From NCBI RefSeq assembly GCF_003324185.1, contig NZ_PXUP01000002.1, positions 1 through 64,000 of the forward strand: a DNA stretch of 64,000 nucleotides, in the 5' to 3' direction. The first letter of the stretch is position 1. Every line of letters starts with the position of its first letter. The notes beneath the pieces were generated by a model, which had not been told where the DNA came from, did not search any database, and saw only the letters and a program-made list of their open reading frames with translations. Positions 3,415 through 61,437 of the stretch are shown here, piece by piece. Source of the DNA: Faecalibacterium prausnitzii. GTDB taxonomy: Bacteria; Bacillota; Clostridia; Oscillospirales; Ruminococcaceae. A program made the translations under genes and the position numbers.

Positions 3415-4361
3415 AAAATACCTCGTATCACCAGCCCAAGCGCCAGCGCCAGCAGGCTTTCGGCGTACATCATGCGGTCAGCGCGGCGGATATCCTCCGG
3501 CTCAATGGGACGCACGGCATCGCCGATGGTGGGCTTAGGGTAGTATTGACCAAAATAGTAGGCAGGCCCCGCCAGCTGCACGTTTAGTGCACCGGCGCAG
3601 GCGCTCTCGGTCTGGGCACTGTTTGGGCTGGCATGGTTGCGCCTGTCCCGCCGCCAGATGCGCCACGCGCTGCGGGCATCGTTGCCGGTCAGGGCAGCAG
3701 CCGCCACCCACAGCAGGGCGGCAATGCGGCTGGGCAAAAAGTTCGCAATATCATCCAGCTTTGCCGCTGCACGCCCAAAGCGCAGATATCGCTCGTTTTT
3801 GTAGCCCACCATGCTGTCCATGGTGTTGATGGCCTTGTAGGTCAGTGCCAGCGGAGCGCCGCCCAGCAGCATATACAACAGCGGTGCGATCACCCCGTCG
3901 CTGGCGTTTTCCGCCACGGTCTCCACAGTGGCTTTGGTCACGCCTTCCGCAGTCAGTGCCTGCGTATCCCGCCCCACGATGCGGCTCACGGCAATGCGGG
4001 CGGCAGGCAGGTCGGGCTTTGTCAGCTCCTGGTAGACGTTCATACTCTCCTGCACAAGCCCCTTTGCCGCCAGGGCCTGTCCGCACCAGAACATCTGCAC
4101 TGCCAGTCCCAGCAGCGGGTGCAGGGCGGCGGCTCCCATGCAGACAAGGCTTGTGATCGCAAAGGTGCCCACCGGTAAGCAAAAGGCCAAGATGTGCCCG
4201 CCCCAAAGCTCACCCTTTGGCGTTTTGGGCAGGCGGGCACGCAGCCCTTTTTCCAGCGCAGAGATGGCTTTGCCCATATACACTACCGGGTGCGGCAGCC
4301 ACGCAGGGTCGCCGAAAACGGCATCCAGCACAAAGCCGCCCAGTACCGCGTAGCCGATCAT
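3411..4361 (-). CDS. cbiB: Adenosylcobinamide-phosphate synthase CbiB
   Basis: This 316-residue membrane protein couples aminopropanol phosphate (from CobD) to adenosylcobyric acid. The family signature LDAVFGDPAWLPHPVVYMG is at residues 12-30. Hydrophobic segments follow near residues 60-95 and 165-235, along with the conserved NTMDSMVGYKN and NFLPSRIAALL motifs. The SPNSAQTESACAGALNVQL segment near residue 245 is also characteristic of CbiB. It overlaps the cobC-like gene by 4 bases upstream and cobD by 4 bases downstream. Confidence 0.95.
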   Translation of the reverse strand: MIGYAVLGGFVLDAVFGDPAWLPHPVVYMGKAISALEKGLRARLPKTPKGELWGGHILAFCLPVGTFAITSLVCMGAAALHPLLGLAVQMFWCGQALAAKGLVQESMNVYQELTKPDLPAARIAVSRIVGRDTQALTAEGVTKATVETVAENASDGVIAPLLYMLLGGAPLALTYKAINTMDSMVGYKNERYLRFGRAAAKLDDIANFLPSRIAALLWVAAAALTGNDARSAWRIWRRDRRNHASPNSAQTESACAGALNVQLAGPAYYFGQYYPKPTIGDAVRPIEPEDIRRADRMMYAESLLALALGLVIRGIL

Positions 4362-4957: not shown

Positions 4958-5277
4958 TCCGGCAATTCTCCTTTCAAAACGGTGGGGATGCCGCAGAACA
5001 TCTGCACCACGCACTTAGCGCGTGCCGCCAGCATACAGGCCAGCCGCCCGGCGTTTTCCCGCGCGGCACGCTCGGCCGGGTCTATGGGCACCACACCGCC
5101 GCCCACCTCGGTGGACAGCACGATATCATAAGCGGATAATTTGTCCGCAAGTTTCTCAAGCTCAGCATTGTCCTTGCACCCGGCGGCAAGCTGCTGCGCA
5201 TCTGTGATGCAGCGGCCGGGCAGGGTGCGGGCAAAGGTGCGCTTGCCGCTGTACAGCGGCCCGGTGATAAAGATCAT
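4951..5277 (-). CDS. Short CobU-like P-loop protein, second copy in this operon
   Basis: This 108-residue protein has a CobU-type P-loop (MIFITGPLYSGKRTFA) and the CobU C-terminal signature EVGGGVVPIDPAERAARENAGRL, followed by a CGIPTVLKG ending. The middle part of normal CobU (about 60 residues, including the D-E-x-x-x-R-x-x-x-H block that carries the guanylylated histidine) is absent. A full-length cobU lies one gene upstream, so this looks like a shortened paralog. It may keep nucleotide binding but probably cannot do the guanylyltransferase step. The ATG at 5277 overlaps cobS by 4 bases, an arrangement that suggests the gene is maintained. The function is unknown. Confidence 0.75.
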   Translation of the reverse strand: MIFITGPLYSGKRTFARTLPGRCITDAQQLAAGCKDNAELEKLADKLSAYDIVLSTEVGGGVVPIDPAERAARENAGRLACMLAARAKCVVQMFCGIPTVLKGELPEC

Positions 5278-33429: not shown

Positions 33430-33458
33430 AGTATAGCAGAATTTGCCGCGCGGTACAA
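33430..33458 (-). promoter_or_regulatory. Promoter of the GNAT gene
   Basis: Minus strand TTGTAC, 17 bases, TATACT, lying 62 bases before the start. It is back to back with the promoter of the secreted hydrolase. Confidence 0.8.
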
Positions 33459-33482
33459 GAAGCGGACTGCACAGAAATTGTT

Positions 33483-33510
33483 TTGACATCTCACCTGTTT
33501 GTGATACAAT
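33483..33510 (+). promoter_or_regulatory. Promoter of the secreted hydrolase gene
   Basis: TTGACA, a 16-base spacer and TACAAT precede the ATG at 33560 by about 50 bases. Confidence 0.8.
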
Positions 33511-33559
33511 AAGGGAACAGGAATGCGGCGGGGAATGCGCCGTCTCTCATGGAGGATGT

Positions 33560-34627
33560 ATGAGAAAAACTGTCCGGGTACTGCTGTGTATGGTTTGGCT
33601 TATGCTTTGCGCGGCGCTGCCTGCCTTTGGCGCAGAGAGCGCACCCCATGTCACGGCAGAAACTACAATGGCTCAGCTGCGCGCAAACCCGGCGATCCAG
33701 GGAAGCGGCTATTATACATATTGCCGTGAGATGACGCCGCTGATGGTGGAACGCTGGAAAAACAAGACCTTGCACGATTATTTTGGCGACACCGACCGGG
33801 AATCCGGCATTGCTGCGCTGAACCTTATCATTGATAACTATAATAAGGGCGTCAAGGTCACCTATCAGGTCTACACGCCTGAGGAGATCGAACACAATTC
33901 CAGTCTGGGCTGTGTGCAGCTGTTTTATTATCCGGCCGAGACCCCCAACGCCAAAACCGCTATCGTAGTGCCCGGCAACGCCTTGACCGCAACCTCGGAG
34001 ATGGGTGAGGGCGGCTCCACGGCCTACGAGCTGCATAACCGGGGCTATGCCGTGTTCGTGCTGCGCTACCGCACCTTTTTGGATCTGGGCAATAACGCCC
34101 CGCTGGAGGATCTGGCAAGGGCGGTGCAGCTGGTGACAAGCCTTGACGAGGAGCTTTCCATCCATACACAGGGCTATGTGCTGGTGGGCTACTCCTCTGG
34201 CGGCCAGCTTGTGGGCGTGTTCGCAAATAAGGAGCGCGGCTACGGCTATTACGGCGCTGCAAAACCCGGTGCACTGCTGTTGGCTTATCCGGTAGTGAAC
34301 TTTTCAGAGGTAAAGATCGCGTATCAGGCGCTTATGGATACCGGCAACTATGGGTGGCACTATTACTGCTCCAGTGTGGCAGATCTTGTCACGGACGATT
34401 ATCCGCCGGTATTTTTCTGGTACGGAAAGGACGACAAGGTGCTGCCTTGGATGATCAATCAGGTGCAGGGCCCGGCGCTGCAAGCGGCGCTGGAAGCCCA
34501 CAAGGTACCTTATGTTATGAAGGTGTTTGAGTCTGCGCCGCATAGTATCGGGGTGGGCTATACCACCGATGCCGAGGGCTGGCTGACAGATGCCGTGGCT
34601 TTCTGGGAGCAGCAGACCGCTGCCTGA
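33560..34627 (+). CDS. Secreted alpha/beta hydrolase (esterase/lipase-like)
   Basis: The 355-residue protein has a signal peptide (MRKTVRVLLCMVWLML..., cleavage probably after AFGA at about residue 24). The mature part has an oxyanion-type motif VVPGNALTATSEMGEGG, a nucleophile in VLVGYSSGGQLVG (serine near residue 214), an aspartate in WYGKDDKVLPW and a histidine in ESAPHSIGVGY. It is related to the esterase at 30775 but exported. The substrate is unknown, with a dietary or host ester plausible. GGAGG precedes the ATG at 33560. The open frame from 33443 has no better start. Confidence 0.85.
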   Translation: MRKTVRVLLCMVWLMLCAALPAFGAESAPHVTAETTMAQLRANPAIQGSGYYTYCREMTPLMVERWKNKTLHDYFGDTDRESGIAALNLIIDNYNKGVKVTYQVYTPEEIEHNSSLGCVQLFYYPAETPNAKTAIVVPGNALTATSEMGEGGSTAYELHNRGYAVFVLRYRTFLDLGNNAPLEDLARAVQLVTSLDEELSIHTQGYVLVGYSSGGQLVGVFANKERGYGYYGAAKPGALLLAYPVVNFSEVKIAYQALMDTGNYGWHYYCSSVADLVTDDYPPVFFWYGKDDKVLPWMINQVQGPALQAALEAHKVPYVMKVFESAPHSIGVGYTTDAEGWLTDAVAFWEQQTAA

Positions 34628-52659: not shown

Positions 52660-54006
52660 TTAAATTTTGTTGCTTCTGCGCCAGATGTGCAGTTTTTCAG
52701 CCTCGCGGATCAACTCTTCACGGAAGTCCGGGTGTGCCACGCTGATCAGAGCCTCGGCCTTTTCCCAAGAGGTCAGGCCCTTCAGATTCACGCAGCCATA
52801 CTCGGTGCACAGATAGTGCACGTTGGCGCGGGTGTCGGTAACGATGCTGCCGTTCTCCAGCGTGGGACGGATACGGCTTTCCAGCTGGCCGGTCTTTTTA
52901 TTAAAGAAGGTGGAGGACAGGCAGATAAAGCTCTTGCCGCCCTTGGAAAGGTATGCGCCCAGCACGAAGTCCAGCTGACCGCCTGCGCCGGAAATGTGCT
53001 TCACACCGGCGCTTTCGGCATTCACCTGACCAAACAGGTCGATATCCACGGCATTGTTGATGGAAATAAAGTTGTCCAGTGCGGAAATGCTGCGGATGTC
53101 GTTGGTGTAGTCCACCGGGGCAGACATACACTCCGGGTTATCGTTCAGGTAATCGTACATCTTCTGGGTGCCGGCACCAAAGGCGTAGACCTGACGGCCC
53201 TTGTCCAGCTGCTTGCGGCTGCCGTTGATCTTGCCGGCCTTGGCAATATCCACAAAGGCATCCACATACATCTCGGTGTGCACGCCCAGATCCTTCAGAT
53301 CGCTCTGCGCGATCAGCCCGCCGATGGCATTGGGCATACCGCCGATGCCCAGTTGCAGGCAGGCACCGTTAGGAATCTGCGGCACGATGAGGTTGGCTAC
53401 CTTCAGGTCAACCTCGGTAGCGGCACCGGCAGCTGCCATCTGGCCGATGGGGGGATTTGTGCCCTCCACAATGCCACTTACCTGAGAAACGTGTACGCTG
53501 TTCTCCATGCCGCCAAGGCAGCGCGGCATATTGGTGTTGACCTCCACAATGATCTTCTTGGCCTTTTCGCACACAGCACCCAGATGCGAAGCGCTGGGAC
53601 CGAAGTTGAAGTAGCCATGCTCGTCCATGGGGGTCACCTGAAATACTGCCACATCCACGGGGTCGCTGCTCTCGCGGTAGTAGCGGGGCAGCTCAGAGTA
53701 GCGGATGGGGGAGTAGAAGGAGAAACCTTGCGCAATGGCCTTGCGCTCAATGCCGCCCATGTGCCAGCTGTTCCAGGTCATGTGGGCAGCAGGGTCGTCG
53801 ATCTGGAAGATCTCCGGCACCCACATCAGAATGCCGCCCCGGAAGTTGACTCCTTCCAACTCCGGCAGGCGTTTTGCTAGCTCGGCGTCCACGGCCACAG
53901 GGGTGTTCACGGCCCAGCCGTAATCCACCCAGTCGCCGCTTTTGACCAGAGCGGCAGCCTGCGCAGCAGTCATAAGCTTCTGTGCGTACAGTTCCTTGCA
54001 ATCCAT
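52660..54006 (-). CDS. but: Butyryl-CoA:acetate CoA-transferase But
   Basis: The 448-residue product has the length of But in Faecalibacterium, the enzyme that releases butyrate by moving CoA to acetate. The family features are [48 protein letters not shown] (about residues 217-232) and the catalytic glutamate in [10 protein letters not shown] (Glu245). The terminal [17 protein letters not shown] and [22 protein letters not shown] blocks also match class I CoA-transferases. The frame extends to 54033, but GAGAGGA 9 bases before the ATG at 54006 and the [10 protein letters not shown] start fit known But proteins. It stands alone, convergent in function with the operon at 55091. Confidence 0.93.
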
Positions 54007-54036
54007 TATAAACCATCCTCTCTTAAAATACATAAA

Positions 54037-55090: not shown

Positions 55091-56308
55091 ATGAAAAAGA
55101 TCGTTATCGCATCTGCATGCCGCACCGCCATCGGCAAGTTCGGTGGCACTCTGGCCAACGTTCCCGCTGCTGAGCTGGGCTCCATCGTCATCAAGGAGGC
55201 TCTGAACCGTGCAAACGTCAAGCCCGAGCAGGTCGATCATGTTTACATGGGCTGCGTCATTCAGGCTGGTCTGGGCCAGAACGTCGCTCGTCAGGCTGCC
55301 CTGAAGGCTGGTCTGCCCATCGAGACCCCCGCCGTCACCGTCAACGTGGTCTGCGGCTCTGGTCTGAACTGCGTGAACATGGCTGCTCAGATGATCGAGG
55401 CAGGCGATGCTGATATCGTTGTTGCAGGCGGCATGGAGAACATGGATATGGCTCCCTTCGCACTGCAGAAGGCTCGCTACGGCTACCGCATGGGCGCTCC
55501 CATGGGCAAGAGCGAGATCGTGGATACCATGGTCAACGATGCACTGTGGGATGCCTGCGGCTTCAACAAGCACATGGGCATGACCGCTGAGAACGTCTGC
55601 ACCAACGAGACCTATCAGAAGAAGTACGGCTACAGCCCCATCACCCGCGAGATGCTGGACGAGTTCTCATACAACAGCCAGCTGAAGGCTGACAAGGCCA
55701 TCAAGGACGGCGCCTTCAAGGACGAGATCGTTCCTGTTGTCATCAAGGGCAAGAAGGGCGACACCGTGTTCGATACCGATGAGGGCCCCCGTCTGAGCGC
55801 TCCCGAGGTTCTGGCAAAGCTGAAGCCCGCCTTCACCAAAGACGGCATCGTCACCGCTGGTAACTCTTCCGCCATCAACGACGGCGCTGCTGCTCTGGTC
55901 GTCATGAGCGAGGAGAAGGCTAAGGAGCTGGGCGTGAAGCCTCTGGCAACTTGGGTTGCCGGTGCTCTGGCAGGCGTTGAGCCCGAGGTCATGGGTCTGG
56001 GCCCCATCGCTGCTACCAAGAAGGTCATGGCCAAGACCGGCATGACCGTTGCTGATATGGATCTGGTCGAGGCCAACGAGGCATTCGCAGCACAGTCCAT
56101 CGCTGTCGGCGAGGCTCTGGGCTTCGATAAGGACAAGCTGAACGTCAACGGCGGCGCAATCGCTTTGGGTCACCCGGTCGGCGCTTCCGGCGCTCGTATT
56201 CTGGTCACCCTGCTGTACGCTATGAAGCACCGTGGTGCTCACAAGGGTCTGGCTACCCTGTGCATCGGCGGCGGCATGGGCTGCGCTACCATCGTTGAGA
56301 TGGACTAA
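55091..56308 (+). CDS. thlA: Acetyl-CoA acetyltransferase (thiolase) Thl
   Basis: The 405-residue thiolase condenses two acetyl-CoA to acetoacetyl-CoA, the first step of the butyrate pathway. Nucleophile Cys88 lies in VNVVCGSG, His361 in [13 protein letters not shown], and the second catalytic cysteine (Cys391) in TLCIGGGMG. The codons are strikingly uniform (many GCT, GTT, CTG, AAG), a sign of high expression compared with the cob genes. AGGAGG precedes the ATG. It begins the gene order thl-crt-hbd-bcd. Confidence 0.96.
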
Positions 56309-56432
56309 GCACTCTTTCTCTGAATCCTGACTGAACCACAGACCCGGAGCGCCGGAGGGAACCGGAGAGCTCTCCTGCGTTCTGGGGGCTGTTTTGAAAA
56401 AAACTGAACTGTATGAAATGGAGGTTTTCACA

Positions 56433-57218
56433 ATGGCATTTGTAAAAACCGAGGTGCAGGGCGCTGTTGAGATCATTACCATCGACCGTCCCAAGGCACT
56501 GAACGCCCTGAACCCCGAGGTTCTGGCTGACCTGAAGGCTGCTTTTGAGGCAGTCGATCAGGAGACTGTCCGCTGCATCGTTCTGACCGGCGAAGGCGAC
56601 AAGAGCTTCGTTGCTGGTGCTGATATCGGTTCTATGAGCACCATGACTAAGGCAGAAGGCGAGGCCTTCGGCAAGCTGGGCAATGATGTGTTCCTGATGA
56701 TCGAGCATTTCCCCATCCCCGTCATCGCAGCCGTCAACGGCTTTGCACTGGGCGGCGGCAACGAGCTGGCTATGAGCTGCGATATCCGCATCTGCTCTGA
56801 CAACGCTGTGTTCGGTCAGCCGGAAGTCGGTCTGGGCATCACCCCGGGCTTCGGCGGCACCCAGCGTCTGGCTCGTCTGGTCGGCATGGGCATGGCAAAG
56901 CAGCTGGTCTACTCTGCGCTGAACATCAAGGCTGACGAGGCTTACCGCATCGGTCTGGTCAACGCCGTGTATCCGCAGGCTGAGCTGATGGAGAATGTCC
57001 TGAAGCTGGCCGGCAAGATCGCAAAGAACGCTCCCATTGCTGTGCGTAACTGCAAGAAGGCAATGAACGACGGCATCAGCCTGCCCATCGAGAAGGCTGT
57101 TGAGGTCGAGGAGAAGTTGTTCGGCGCTTGCTTCGAGACCCACGATCAGCAAGAGGGCATGGCTTGCTTCCTGTCCCGTGAGAAACCGAAGCCCAAGGCA
57201 GTGTTCACCAACAACTAA
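56433..57218 (+). CDS. crt: 3-hydroxybutyryl-CoA dehydratase (crotonase) Crt
   Basis: The 261-residue crotonase removes water from 3-hydroxybutyryl-CoA to give crotonyl-CoA. The oxyanion-hole motifs are VAGADIGSMSTM (about residues 61-72) and AVNGFALGGGNELAMSCD (about 98-115). The catalytic glutamates lie in GGGNELAMSCD (first) and FGQPEVGLGITPGFGGTQRL (second). GGAGG is 8 bases before the ATG at 56433; the upstream open part of the frame (from 56394) has no ribosome site. The 124-base gap to thl contains no obvious terminator. Confidence 0.96.
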   Translation: MAFVKTEVQGAVEIITIDRPKALNALNPEVLADLKAAFEAVDQETVRCIVLTGEGDKSFVAGADIGSMSTMTKAEGEAFGKLGNDVFLMIEHFPIPVIAAVNGFALGGGNELAMSCDIRICSDNAVFGQPEVGLGITPGFGGTQRLARLVGMGMAKQLVYSALNIKADEAYRIGLVNAVYPQAELMENVLKLAGKIAKNAPIAVRNCKKAMNDGISLPIEKAVEVEEKLFGACFETHDQQEGMACFLSREKPKPKAVFTNN

Positions 57219-57257
57219 TCCATTACATAATTTTTGATATTAAAGGAGAGATTTCCT

Positions 57258-58130
57258 ATGAAGATCGGTGTTATCGGCGCTGGCACTATGGGTCAGGGCA
57301 TCGCAAAGGCATTTGCACAGGTTGAGGGCAACACCGTTGCTCTGTGCGACATCAAGCAGGAGTGGGCCGAGAATGGTCTGGCAAAGATCAAGAAGGGCTA
57401 CGAGAAGCTGGTCGCTAAGGGAAAGATGACTCAGGAGAAGGCTGACGCAATCGTCGCCGCCATCACCCCGGGTCTGAAGGAAGATCTGTGCGCAGACTGC
57501 GATCTGGTCGTTGAGGCTGCTTTCGAGGATATGAAGGTCAAGCAGACCACCTTCGGCGAGCTGGATAAGATCTGCAAGCCCGAGTGCGTTTTCGCTTCCA
57601 ACACTTCTTCTCTGTCCATTACCGAGATCGGCAAGGGTCTGTCCCGTCCCCTGATCGGTATGCACTTCTTCAACCCCGCAGACCGTATGAAGCTGATCGA
57701 GGTCATCGCCGGCTGCAACACCCCCGCTGAGACCGTTGAGAAGATCAAGGAGATCGCCGTTGCCATCGGCAAGAGCCCCGTTCAGGTCAACGAGGCTGCC
57801 GGCTTTGTGGTCAACCGCATCCTGATCCCCATGATCAACGAGGCTGCCTTCATTAAGATGGAGGGCGTTTCCGATATCGCCGGCATCGACACCGCTATGA
57901 AGCTGGGTGCTAACCACCCCATGGGACCCCTGGAACTGGGCGACTTCATCGGTCTGGACATCTGCTTGGCCATCATGGACGTGCTGTACAACGAGACCGG
58001 CGACAGCAAGTACCGTGCCTGCCCGCTGATCCGCAAGATGGTGCGTGGCGGCAATCTGGGCTGCAAGACCGGTAAGGGCTTCTACGTTTACAACGCAGAC
58101 CGCACCAAGACCCCTGTTGACCAGCTGTAA
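57258..58130 (+). CDS. hbd: 3-hydroxybutyryl-CoA dehydrogenase Hbd
   Basis: The 290-residue NAD(P)-dependent enzyme reduces acetoacetyl-CoA. It starts MKIGVIGAGTMGQGIAKAF (dinucleotide motif GxGxxG) and has ASNTSSLSITEI, RLIGMHFFNPA-type substrate loop (here PLIGMHFFNPADRMKLIEV), NEAAGFVVNRI and a C-terminal GANHPMGPLELGDFIGLD region. AAAGGAG precedes the ATG at 57258. In this operon hbd acts before crt, although it is placed after it. Confidence 0.96.
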   Translation: MKIGVIGAGTMGQGIAKAFAQVEGNTVALCDIKQEWAENGLAKIKKGYEKLVAKGKMTQEKADAIVAAITPGLKEDLCADCDLVVEAAFEDMKVKQTTFGELDKICKPECVFASNTSSLSITEIGKGLSRPLIGMHFFNPADRMKLIEVIAGCNTPAETVEKIKEIAVAIGKSPVQVNEAAGFVVNRILIPMINEAAFIKMEGVSDIAGIDTAMKLGANHPMGPLELGDFIGLDICLAIMDVLYNETGDSKYRACPLIRKMVRGGNLGCKTGKGFYVYNADRTKTPVDQL

Positions 58131-58144
58131 ATTCTGATAAACAT

Positions 58145-58178
58145 TTCTCCCGGCTGCGGGGAAAGCGGTCGGGAGGAA
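58145..58178 (+). other. Hairpin between hbd and bcd
   Basis: TTCTCCCG (58145-58152) pairs with CGGGAGGAA (58170-58178), followed by TTTGTTTGC. It could reduce or process the transcript before bcd; it is weaker than the true terminators in this window. Confidence 0.4.
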
Positions 58179-58236
58179 TTTGTTTGCACCGGGCTATTCC
58201 GGTAAATGAAAAAAGACCTGTTAGGAGGATATAGCG

Positions 58237-59406
<1,170 letters not shown>

Positions 59407-59423
59407 GGGAGGCAAGAGTTACA

Positions 59424-59951
59424 ATGAAAGCAATTGTTTGTGTAAAGCAGGTTCCTGATACCTCCGGCAAGGTGTCCGTCAAGCCCGCCTTCAGCCTGAC
59501 CGCTGAGGACATCAAGACCGAAGTGCTGAGCGTGGAGAAGGCCGCTGAGAAGCTGGTCGACCTGATCGGCGCAGATGTCATTGTCTCCGTTGGTCGTGGT
59601 ATCAGCAAGGATGTCAACAAGGGCATCGAGCTGGCCGAGCAGCTGGCAGCCGCTCTGGGCGGCGGTGTCGTGGGCGCTTCCCGTGCCGTCACCGATGCAG
59701 GCTGGATGACCGCTGACCATCAGGTCGGTCAGACCGGCAAGACTGTGCACCCCAAGATCTATGTGGCTCTGGGTATCTCTGGTGCTATCCAGCACACCGC
59801 CGGTATGCAGGATTCTGAGTGCATCATCGCCGTCAACAAGAACGAGGGTGCTCCCATCTTCGGCGTTGCTGACTACGGCATCGTGGGCGATCTGTTCAAG
59901 GTCGTGCCTGAGCTGATCAAGCAGATCGAGGCAGCAAAGGCTGCTCTGTGA
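59424..59951 (+). pseudogene. In-frame chimera: etfB start joined to etfA C-terminal half (internal deletion)
   Basis: The frame encodes 175 residues. Residues 1-20 (MKAIVCVKQVPDTSGKVSVK) are the unmistakable N-terminus of EtfB. From about residue 22 on, the sequence is the C-terminal FAD domain of EtfA: ADVIVSVGRGISKDV, GGGVVGASRAVTDAGW, HQVGQTGKTVHP, LGISGAIQHTAGMQDS, AVNKNEGAPIFGVADYGIVGD. Nearly all of EtfB (normally about 260 residues) and the first ~200 residues of EtfA are missing; the junction is near 59475-59490. The ribosome site and spacing after bcd are those of etfB. The product may fold as a lone FAD domain but cannot form normal EtfAB. Either a real deletion or an assembly error explains it. 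Confidence 0.85.
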
Positions 59952-59995
59952 TCGCCTGTTCCTGAGCATTGTTCAATAGCATAGCCTGAATTGTG

Positions 59996-60034
59996 AGAGG
60001 CCGTTGCACATTTTTGTGCAGCGGCCTCTTTTTT
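59996..60034 (+). terminator. Terminator of the butyrate operon
   Basis: The 14-bp stem AGAGGCCGTTGCAC/GTGCAGCGGCCTCT (59996-60009 with 60016-60029; one G-T pair) runs into TTTTTT. Confidence 0.88.
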
Positions 60035-60411: not shown

Positions 60412-60453
60412 GAGTTGCGGATGTGATACGACAGAGTTGCAAACGAGTTGCAA
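60412..60453 (+). repeat. Phased GAGTTGC direct repeats in the CAP-gene leader
   Basis: GAGTTGC occurs at 60412, 60434 and 60445, spaced 22 and 11 bases, that is two and one helical turns; a fourth copy is at 60303. Direct repeats at 11-base spacing on one DNA face are typical of response-regulator sites. Confidence 0.55.
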
Positions 60454-60498
60454 TATCCAAGATCACACTGCATAAGGCAACAGACCAGAGGCAATCTT

Positions 60499-61437
60499 AT
60501 GAAGCGTGCAATGAGTACCGTGAAGAATATCGCAGCAGCTGCAATGACGCTGGCTGTGTTTTTTGGCTTTGCAGGCTTCAAGCCCGTCACCGCAAACGCT
60601 GCACAGGCTGCCATGCCTGCCACCGCTTCTGTGGAAGAAGAGAACTCCTACTTTGAGGAAGACGCTTACCAGCGCAGCTTCCTGACCCTGATCAATAACG
60701 AGCGTGCACAGGCTGGTCTGGCTCCTGTTGCTTTGGGCGACAGCAACCACAACGCCGCTGCAATGGAGCGTGCCGAAGAGCTGGCAGTTTCTTACTCCTA
60801 CGTTCGTCCCAACGGTCAGCGCGATTTCACCGTTCTGGCAGAGAACGGTATCAGCGATGTCTCCATCGGCGAGAACTACATGGCCGGCTGCTCCACCCCC
60901 GATTCCGCAATGGATCAGTGGATGGCTACCGACTTCACCCGCGAGCGTATCCTGAACGCCGATGCTACCACCGTGAGCGTTGGCTACTATGAGGGCGGTG
61001 TTTACAATAACTATTGGGTGCTGATCTTCTCTTACCCCGAAAATTCTCACACCGAGGATTACCGTCAGGAAGTTCTGAATCTGGTCAATGCCCAGCGCGC
61101 AAAGTATGGTCTGACTGCTCTGAAAATGGGCGATGACGCTTTGACCGCCGCTGCACAGACCCGCGCCGAGGAGATCGCCGTTGTGAACTCCCACGTCCGT
61201 CCCGATGGCTCTAAGTGCTTCACCGTCCTGAAGGACTATGGCGTCACCGATACCCCCACCGGCGAGAATGCCGCATGGGGCAGCGTCTCTCCTGAAGAAG
61301 TCGTCAATGCATGGATGAACTCCGAAGGCCATCGTGCCAATATCCTGAACCCTGAGGCTCGCAAGATGAGTGTTGGTTACTACTACAACAGCAACAGCAC
61401 TTGGGGTCATCAGTGGATCCAAATCTTTACCAAGTGA
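60499..61437 (+). CDS. Secreted protein with two CAP/SCP domains
   Basis: The 312-residue protein has a signal peptide (KRAMSTVKNIAAAAMTLAVFF), probably cleaved near residues 35-37 (ANAAQA). Two CAP-superfamily domains follow. The first is at about residues 55-182, with FLTLINNERAQAGLAPVALGD and IGENYMAG. The second is at about 188-312, with VLNLVNAQRAKYGLTALKMGD, GENAAWG and WMNSEGHRANILNP. The second keeps the typical 'SEGHRxNIL' histidine motif; the first has TDFTRERIL in its place, so that half has lost the canonical residue. CAP proteins are extracellular, with varied or unknown roles. AGAGG is near the ATG at 60499. Confidence 0.88.
   Translation: MKRAMSTVKNIAAAAMTLAVFFGFAGFKPVTANAAQAAMPATASVEEENSYFEEDAYQRSFLTLINNERAQAGLAPVALGDSNHNAAAMERAEELAVSYSYVRPNGQRDFTVLAENGISDVSIGENYMAGCSTPDSAMDQWMATDFTRERILNADATTVSVGYYEGGVYNNYWVLIFSYPENSHTEDYRQEVLNLVNAQRAKYGLTALKMGDDALTAAAQTRAEEIAVVNSHVRPDGSKCFTVLKDYGVTDTPTGENAAWGSVSPEEVVNAWMNSEGHRANILNPEARKMSVGYYYNSNSTWGHQWIQIFTK

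Follow-up and report, generated by a model that had tools for sequence, protein, structure and literature searches.

An apparent in-frame etfB-etfA deletion behind an intact bcd in a Faecalibacterium prausnitzii genome, probably a young loss-of-function allele

In one genome of Faecalibacterium prausnitzii, the butyryl-CoA dehydrogenase gene bcd is followed by a single frame of 175 codons, at the very place where a close relative encodes etfB (264 aa) and etfA (364 aa) separated by a gap of 21 bp. Did this strain lose its electron-transferring flavoprotein, does the short frame encode a small flavoprotein of a new kind, or is the assembly wrong? The stretch of 64,000 nucleotides that was analyzed, hereafter the window, belongs to contig C24 (263,609 bp) of an assembly of 3.03 Mb in 76 contigs with a completeness rating of 99.85%. 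Two of the nearest relatives served for comparison, namely F. prausnitzii APC923/51-1 (genome G009, locus L032), which carries intact etfB and etfA, and Faecalibacterium sp. I4-1-79 (complete genome G029, locus L033). The features of the window on which the argument relies are the following.

52660..54033, reverse strand: intact gene of an acetyl-CoA hydrolase/transferase family protein, presumably the butyryl-CoA:acetate CoA-transferase, its role with butyryl-CoA being deduced
55091..56308, forward strand: thl, thiolase, intact
56394..57218, forward strand: crt, enoyl-CoA hydratase family, intact
57234..58130, forward strand: hbd, 3-hydroxyacyl-CoA dehydrogenase, intact
58237..59406, forward strand: bcd, acyl/butyryl-CoA dehydrogenase of 389 aa, intact, protein 100% identical to that of G029
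59407..59412, forward strand: ribosome-binding-site-like GGGAGG ahead of the ATG, the same in L032 and L033
59424..59951, forward strand: chimeric frame of 175 aa with an ATG start, joining the EtfB N-terminus to the EtfA C-terminal FAD (shuttle) domain
59424..59486, forward strand: EtfB codons 1-21, from the alignment to the L032 EtfB frame
59477..59487, forward strand: single copy, left at the join, of an 11-bp direct repeat CGTCAAGCCCG, from the comparison with L032
59487..59948, forward strand: EtfA codons 211-364, ETF_alpha FAD domain, from Pfam and the L032 alignment
59995..60030, forward strand: intrinsic-terminator-like hairpin 3' of the chimeric frame

The surroundings of the chimera are those of an ordinary butyrate operon. 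Indeed, the thl, crt, hbd, bcd and CoA-transferase family proteins are all full length and 98.9-100% identical to their counterparts in G029, and the DNA from 55861 to 59487 is about 98% identical to L032 and L033 alike. At a larger scale, the contig aligns with G029 over about 134 kb in blocks that are 93-97% identical, counting blocks longer than 300 bp. Elsewhere in the window, a 394-codon frame at 33443-34627 looks alpha/beta hydrolase-like by eye, and about 1.1 kb there does not align to G009; two CAP stretches, of the cysteine-rich secretory protein family, occur in the protein encoded at 60448-61437, downstream of the operon. A scan of two neighboring proteins for defense families gave no match.

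Compared with L032, exactly 1,383 bp are absent from the window, comprising EtfB codons 22-264 with the stop codon, the 21-bp spacer and EtfA codons 1-210, and the frame remains open since 1,383 is divisible by three. The repeat CGTCAAGCCCG occurs twice in L032, at 3617-3627 and 5000-5010, bordering the absent segment. Between 59400 and 59559, the window matches L032 at every base flanking the join, and L033 at all but one, the difference being a base change in the second repeat copy of L033. Residues V19-K20-P21 of the chimera are common to EtfB and EtfA, so that the join falls within them; residues 1-21 correspond to EtfB and residues 22-175 to EtfA 211-364 of L032. Among the 196 repeat pairs that were counted in the window, 66 have their copies in phase, so that by itself a join keeps the frame about one time in three. 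The first-pass annotation, made from the letters of the window, had rightly recognized a chimera behind bcd, with about 20 EtfB residues in phase with EtfA, and its estimate of about 1.3 kb lost in frame agrees with the exact figure obtained from the bcd-etfBA locus of L032. It had also described an intact ribosome site and a terminator, and the start region is indeed unchanged in L032 and L033 while a terminator-like hairpin is present. The shared sequence that it placed at the join, GTCAAGCCC, does mark a repeat, but the real one is slightly longer, with the 11 bp of CGTCAAGCCCG.

The retained part of EtfA is a nearly complete domain. Pfam recognizes ETF_alpha (PF00766) alone in the chimera, over residues 47-129 with 108 bits and covering positions 2-81 of the 81 of the profile, and the N-terminal ETF domain (PF01012) that a full EtfA also carries gave no match there. 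Six ETF-type models of NCBIfam match the chimera, none of which reaches its own cut-off. Residues 19-175 are 100% identical to the EtfA FAD domain of L032, and this domain is well conserved across 33 aligned sequences. The hairpin at 59995-60030 has a close counterpart in L033; it is the one hairpin found, against 0.6 expected from shuffled sequences.

The codons of the retained domain bear on the age of the event. Between codons 23 and 175, the chimera differs from L032 at 12 codons and from L033 at 20 codons, all synonymously, which argues that the frame is no chance open reading frame. Similarly, the 389 codons of bcd show 1 nonsynonymous and 19 synonymous differences with L032, and 0 and 24 with L033. 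Decay is expected in a pathway step that has long been dead. Since the retained domain shows none, the deletion either occurred very recently in this lineage or is an artefact; judging from the codons, it would thus be very recent, possibly having arisen in culture, or else not real.

Bcd could still operate if a complete ETF were encoded elsewhere, as the first-pass annotation had envisaged. However, PF01012 has no match in the whole assembly, despite its completeness rating of 99.85%, and a search of the genome for the missing 1,383 bp, in which 40 of the 89 first-look candidates were scored, returned matches at the level of chance (best 29-30 bases, E 0.012). The idea of a partner elsewhere is therefore unsupported, and a second ETF in this genome was rejected. 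Of the two components of a Bcd-EtfAB complex, the intact dehydrogenase is provided by the bcd of the window (389 aa), whereas codons 1-21 are all that remains of the EtfB subunit with its b-FAD and NAD site.

This configuration is unique among the relatives. PF00766 was found in 28 of the 31 genomes of the genus and PF01012 in 27, and among the 28 only the present genome is devoid of PF01012. Across the family, 16 of 148 genomes that are at least 95% complete encode PF00766 and 15 of these also encode PF01012, the exception being again this genome. Neither domain was found in the three remaining genomes of the genus (G004, G020 and G024), which also gave no match to hbd and bcd; G004 and G024 are rated 84% and 79% complete, and G020, with 1.9 Mb, is rated 99% complete, so that the pathway has possibly been lost in this species of the Faecalibacterium group. 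The 80 named loci that were compared are the top 80 out of 439 relatives, a set from which the genome of the window itself may be omitted; 74 of them carry an open frame of 180 codons or more ahead of the FAD domain and the other 6 are cut by the end of a contig or record, leaving no short EtfA inside a contig. The junction was not found in viral contigs either, a result that says little on deletion versus artefact, and a non-exhaustive literature search returned no title on an etf deletion in Faecalibacterium.

Apart from the chimera, PF00766 matches just one frame of the genome, of 657 codons and on contig C19, whose surroundings are as follows.

C19, locus L002 1150-3063, reverse strand: BCR-type fusion of an acyl-CoA dehydrogenase, an EtfA FAD domain and a rubredoxin
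C19, locus L002 2-1126, reverse strand: flavodiiron-like neighbor with ODP/metallo-beta-lactamase and flavodoxin domains

This protein was considered as a partner of Bcd and rejected once its acyl-CoA dehydrogenase, EtfA and rubredoxin domains identified it as a fusion of the BCR (butyryl-CoA reductase) type. Its FAD domain is 40% identical to the chimera over 124 columns. The C19 protein has all three domains of a BCR and lies beside a flavodiiron-like protein, whereas the chimera has the FAD domain alone. Frames of 657-707 codons matching both PF00766 and Bcd occur in 10 of the 31 genomes of the genus, including this one, the rubredoxin part having been checked in the copy of the present genome. 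In Fusobacterium nucleatum, a BCR and its flavodiiron partner are described as coupling butyryl-CoA oxidation to O2 reduction (PMC12288474; see also PMC12630350), and a 2026 preprint presents the BCR-FDP pair as conserved in butyrate-forming gut Firmicutes and displays an F. prausnitzii neighborhood that contains it (PMC13404960). By analogy, the BCR may be taken as a precedent for an EtfA FAD domain that works with an acyl-CoA dehydrogenase domain in the absence of EtfB. Four matches to the Rnf-Nqr family (PF02508) were also recorded in the genome, in two pairs at C6 75580-76822 and C76 84603-85858, one with 225 and 174 bits and the other with about 84 and 83; they have no bearing on the deletion. 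For the trans-2-enoyl-CoA reductase bypass, no match to PF12241 was found, which is uninformative because the control likewise matched nowhere.

What could the 175-residue product still do? In EtfAB, the N-terminal parts of EtfA and EtfB form a base, which carries the bifurcating flavin (b-FAD) and hence the site of electron exchange with NAD; a-FAD lies in the shuttle domain, which combines the C-terminal segment of EtfA and the C-terminal arm of EtfB (PMC9232219). The arm is present neither in cis nor in trans, as codons 22-264 of EtfB are gone and no EtfB was found elsewhere; a profile of 71 arm sequences scored 1.1 bits against the chimera (E 0.025 in a one-sequence search), below the inclusion threshold. 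Having neither the base for NAD and bifurcation nor the arm, the chimera is by its very architecture incapable of NADH oxidation and of bifurcation. A possible equivalent of the arm was looked for in the BCR linker, as it would make the BCR a less faithful precedent for a domain without EtfB. The local score of the linker with the EtfB arm is 29, for a mean of 20.6 (sd 4.1) in shuffled sequences, of which 99 of 2000 reach 29; with the arm profile, 9 of 10 BCR sequences are listed at E 0.13-0.61, all under the inclusion threshold, and the profile-profile probability is 1.3%. In the predicted structure of the chimera, the folded part begins at about residue 51 and extends to the last residue, with means over blocks of ten residues of 73 to 93 pLDDT, and values are below 50 at residues 1-22 and 32-44; the overall mean pLDDT is 74 and the pTM 0.67, two of the five models averaging 53 and 58. 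The best structural matches of the model are the EtfA of the Clostridioides difficile Bcd-Etf (5ol2) and the caffeyl-CoA reductase subunit CarE (6fah).

The chimera is most likely a dead, inert remnant. It is improbable, on the contrary, that the 175-aa protein has been kept as a small FAD protein docking on Bcd as a shuttle domain, with a Bcd that would no longer bifurcate and single electrons that would pass between Bcd and a carrier such as a rubredoxin or a flavodoxin. The precedent of the BCR, present here as a fusion and described in Fusobacterium (PMC12288474) with an EtfA FAD domain working without EtfB, means that such a proposal is not absurd. Also in its favor, the ETF_alpha match is almost full length (2-81 of 81), and the model, with its fold beginning near residue 51, resembles 5ol2 and 6fah. 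This intact domain and the BCR precedent make up the positive evidence for a possible small flavoprotein, whose FAD binding would be putative. However, the EtfB arm of the shuttle domain is gone, the low-confidence residues 1-22 and 32-44 and the two poorly scored models weaken the structural argument, the domain is not fused to a rubredoxin or any other carrier, and nothing points to selection for a short form, given that none recurs among the 80 named relatives (74 long, 6 cut). The novel small flavoprotein imagined by the first-pass annotation thus fares poorly. Still less credence is due to its broader version, in which a natural Faecalibacterium lineage would have given up its bifurcating Etf for a free-standing FAD shuttle domain of 175 residues that docks on Bcd and acts with a soluble carrier and without bifurcation, perhaps together with the BCR-FDP oxygen system, so that butyryl-CoA formation would no longer conserve energy. 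At the very bottom of the scale we place a real deletion compensated by the C19 fusion, which would form butyryl-CoA by running in reverse with reduced rubredoxin. The fusion and its flavodiiron-like neighbor are present, and bcd, hbd, crt, thl and the CoA-transferase are intact and conserved, but the described system oxidizes butyryl-CoA with O2 (PMC12288474), its reversal is speculation, and the fusion frame is also found in 9 other genomes of the genus that have PF01012, which argues against any special compensation here.

There remain the two explanations in which the chimera has no function. We consider it rather likely that the locus is a young and probably strain-specific loss-of-function deletion allele of an ordinary bcd-etfB-etfA operon. 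An artefact of assembly or library, in which the strain would possess an intact bcd-etfB-etfA and the 1,383 bp would have been dropped between places sharing 11 bp by the assembler, a gap closer or chimeric molecules, appears unlikely, although it deserves serious consideration. A short exact repeat stands precisely at the join, the absence of any amino-acid change in codons 23-175 fits an artefact equally well, all the 27 other genomes of the genus with PF00766 have PF01012, and the Bcd-Etf function is presumably central to the genus; as butyrate formation is presumably important there, a natural loss of etf should be costly. However, the repeat is just 11 bp long, while 196 exact direct repeat pairs of 11-16 bp with a spacing of 500-3000 bp stand uncollapsed in the window and the etf segment of L032 itself holds a longer pair of 13 bp. 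Moreover, no contig was found with the missing piece, even though contigs as small as 517 and 572 bp were kept (among the 40 of 76 lengths that were read), so that an orphan of 1.4 kb should have been kept as well. Finally, the other stretches that do not align with G029 over the roughly 134 kb measure at most 328 bp, save one of 865 bp that is apparently intergenic, judging from its flanking letters (a TGA before and a ribosome-site-like stretch after). Taken together, the uncollapsed repeats, the lack of an orphan contig and the scarcity of unaligned stretches favor a slippage-type deletion over an assembly collapse, although a similar pattern could also arise from gap closing or from chimeric molecules. 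The collapse across a short shared sequence proposed by the first-pass annotation as the main alternative is consistent with the repeat found at the join, but is less likely than a deletion.

If the deletion is real, template slippage or short-homology recombination between the in-phase 11-bp repeats of etfB and etfA would have removed the 1,383 bp, and with them EtfB with its arm and the EtfA base domain, leaving only the part of the FAD shuttle domain that EtfA contributes. The bifurcating Bcd-Etf would then no longer oxidize NADH, Bcd would be deprived of its electron donor and the reduction of crotonyl-CoA through Bcd-Etf would stop, with the corresponding phenotype, whereas the chimera would persist as a non-functional remnant that is probably still transcribed with the operon.

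Should the living strain carry this deletion, it would offer, without any engineering, an Etf-null representative of a gut genus that produces butyrate, with which one could ask whether Faecalibacterium grows without a bifurcating Bcd-Etf, which alternative products it excretes and whether the BCR-FDP pair carries the flux between crotonyl-CoA and butyryl-CoA. It would also imply that butyrate production can be misjudged when the genes from thl to bcd are counted as its marker. If, on the other hand, the assembly is in error, a pathway step is missing from a genome that is possibly used to predict the butyrate production of the species.

Among known systems, the locus is closest to the Bcd-EtfAB of C. 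difficile (5ol2) and of other Faecalibacterium, where bcd is likewise followed by etf, in the order seen in L032, and the Bcd of the window is intact; the chimera differs by the loss of EtfB 22-264 and EtfA 1-210, and hence of the b-FAD base and of the EtfB arm. The best sequence match among solved structures is CarE (6fah; E 1.6e-44, chimera residues 14-169), a protein of 396 residues of which the chimera matches residues 241-392 only. The base and a ferredoxin domain make up the rest of CarE, which works together with CarD. In the BCR, the FAD domain is covalently linked to an acyl-CoA dehydrogenase on one side and to a rubredoxin on the other, and has a flavodiiron protein as partner; the chimera has neither the linked domains nor the partner, but the BOOR pair (F. 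nucleatum FN1423-FN1424) and its homologue on C19 share with the chimera an EtfA C-terminal FAD domain that stands without EtfB.
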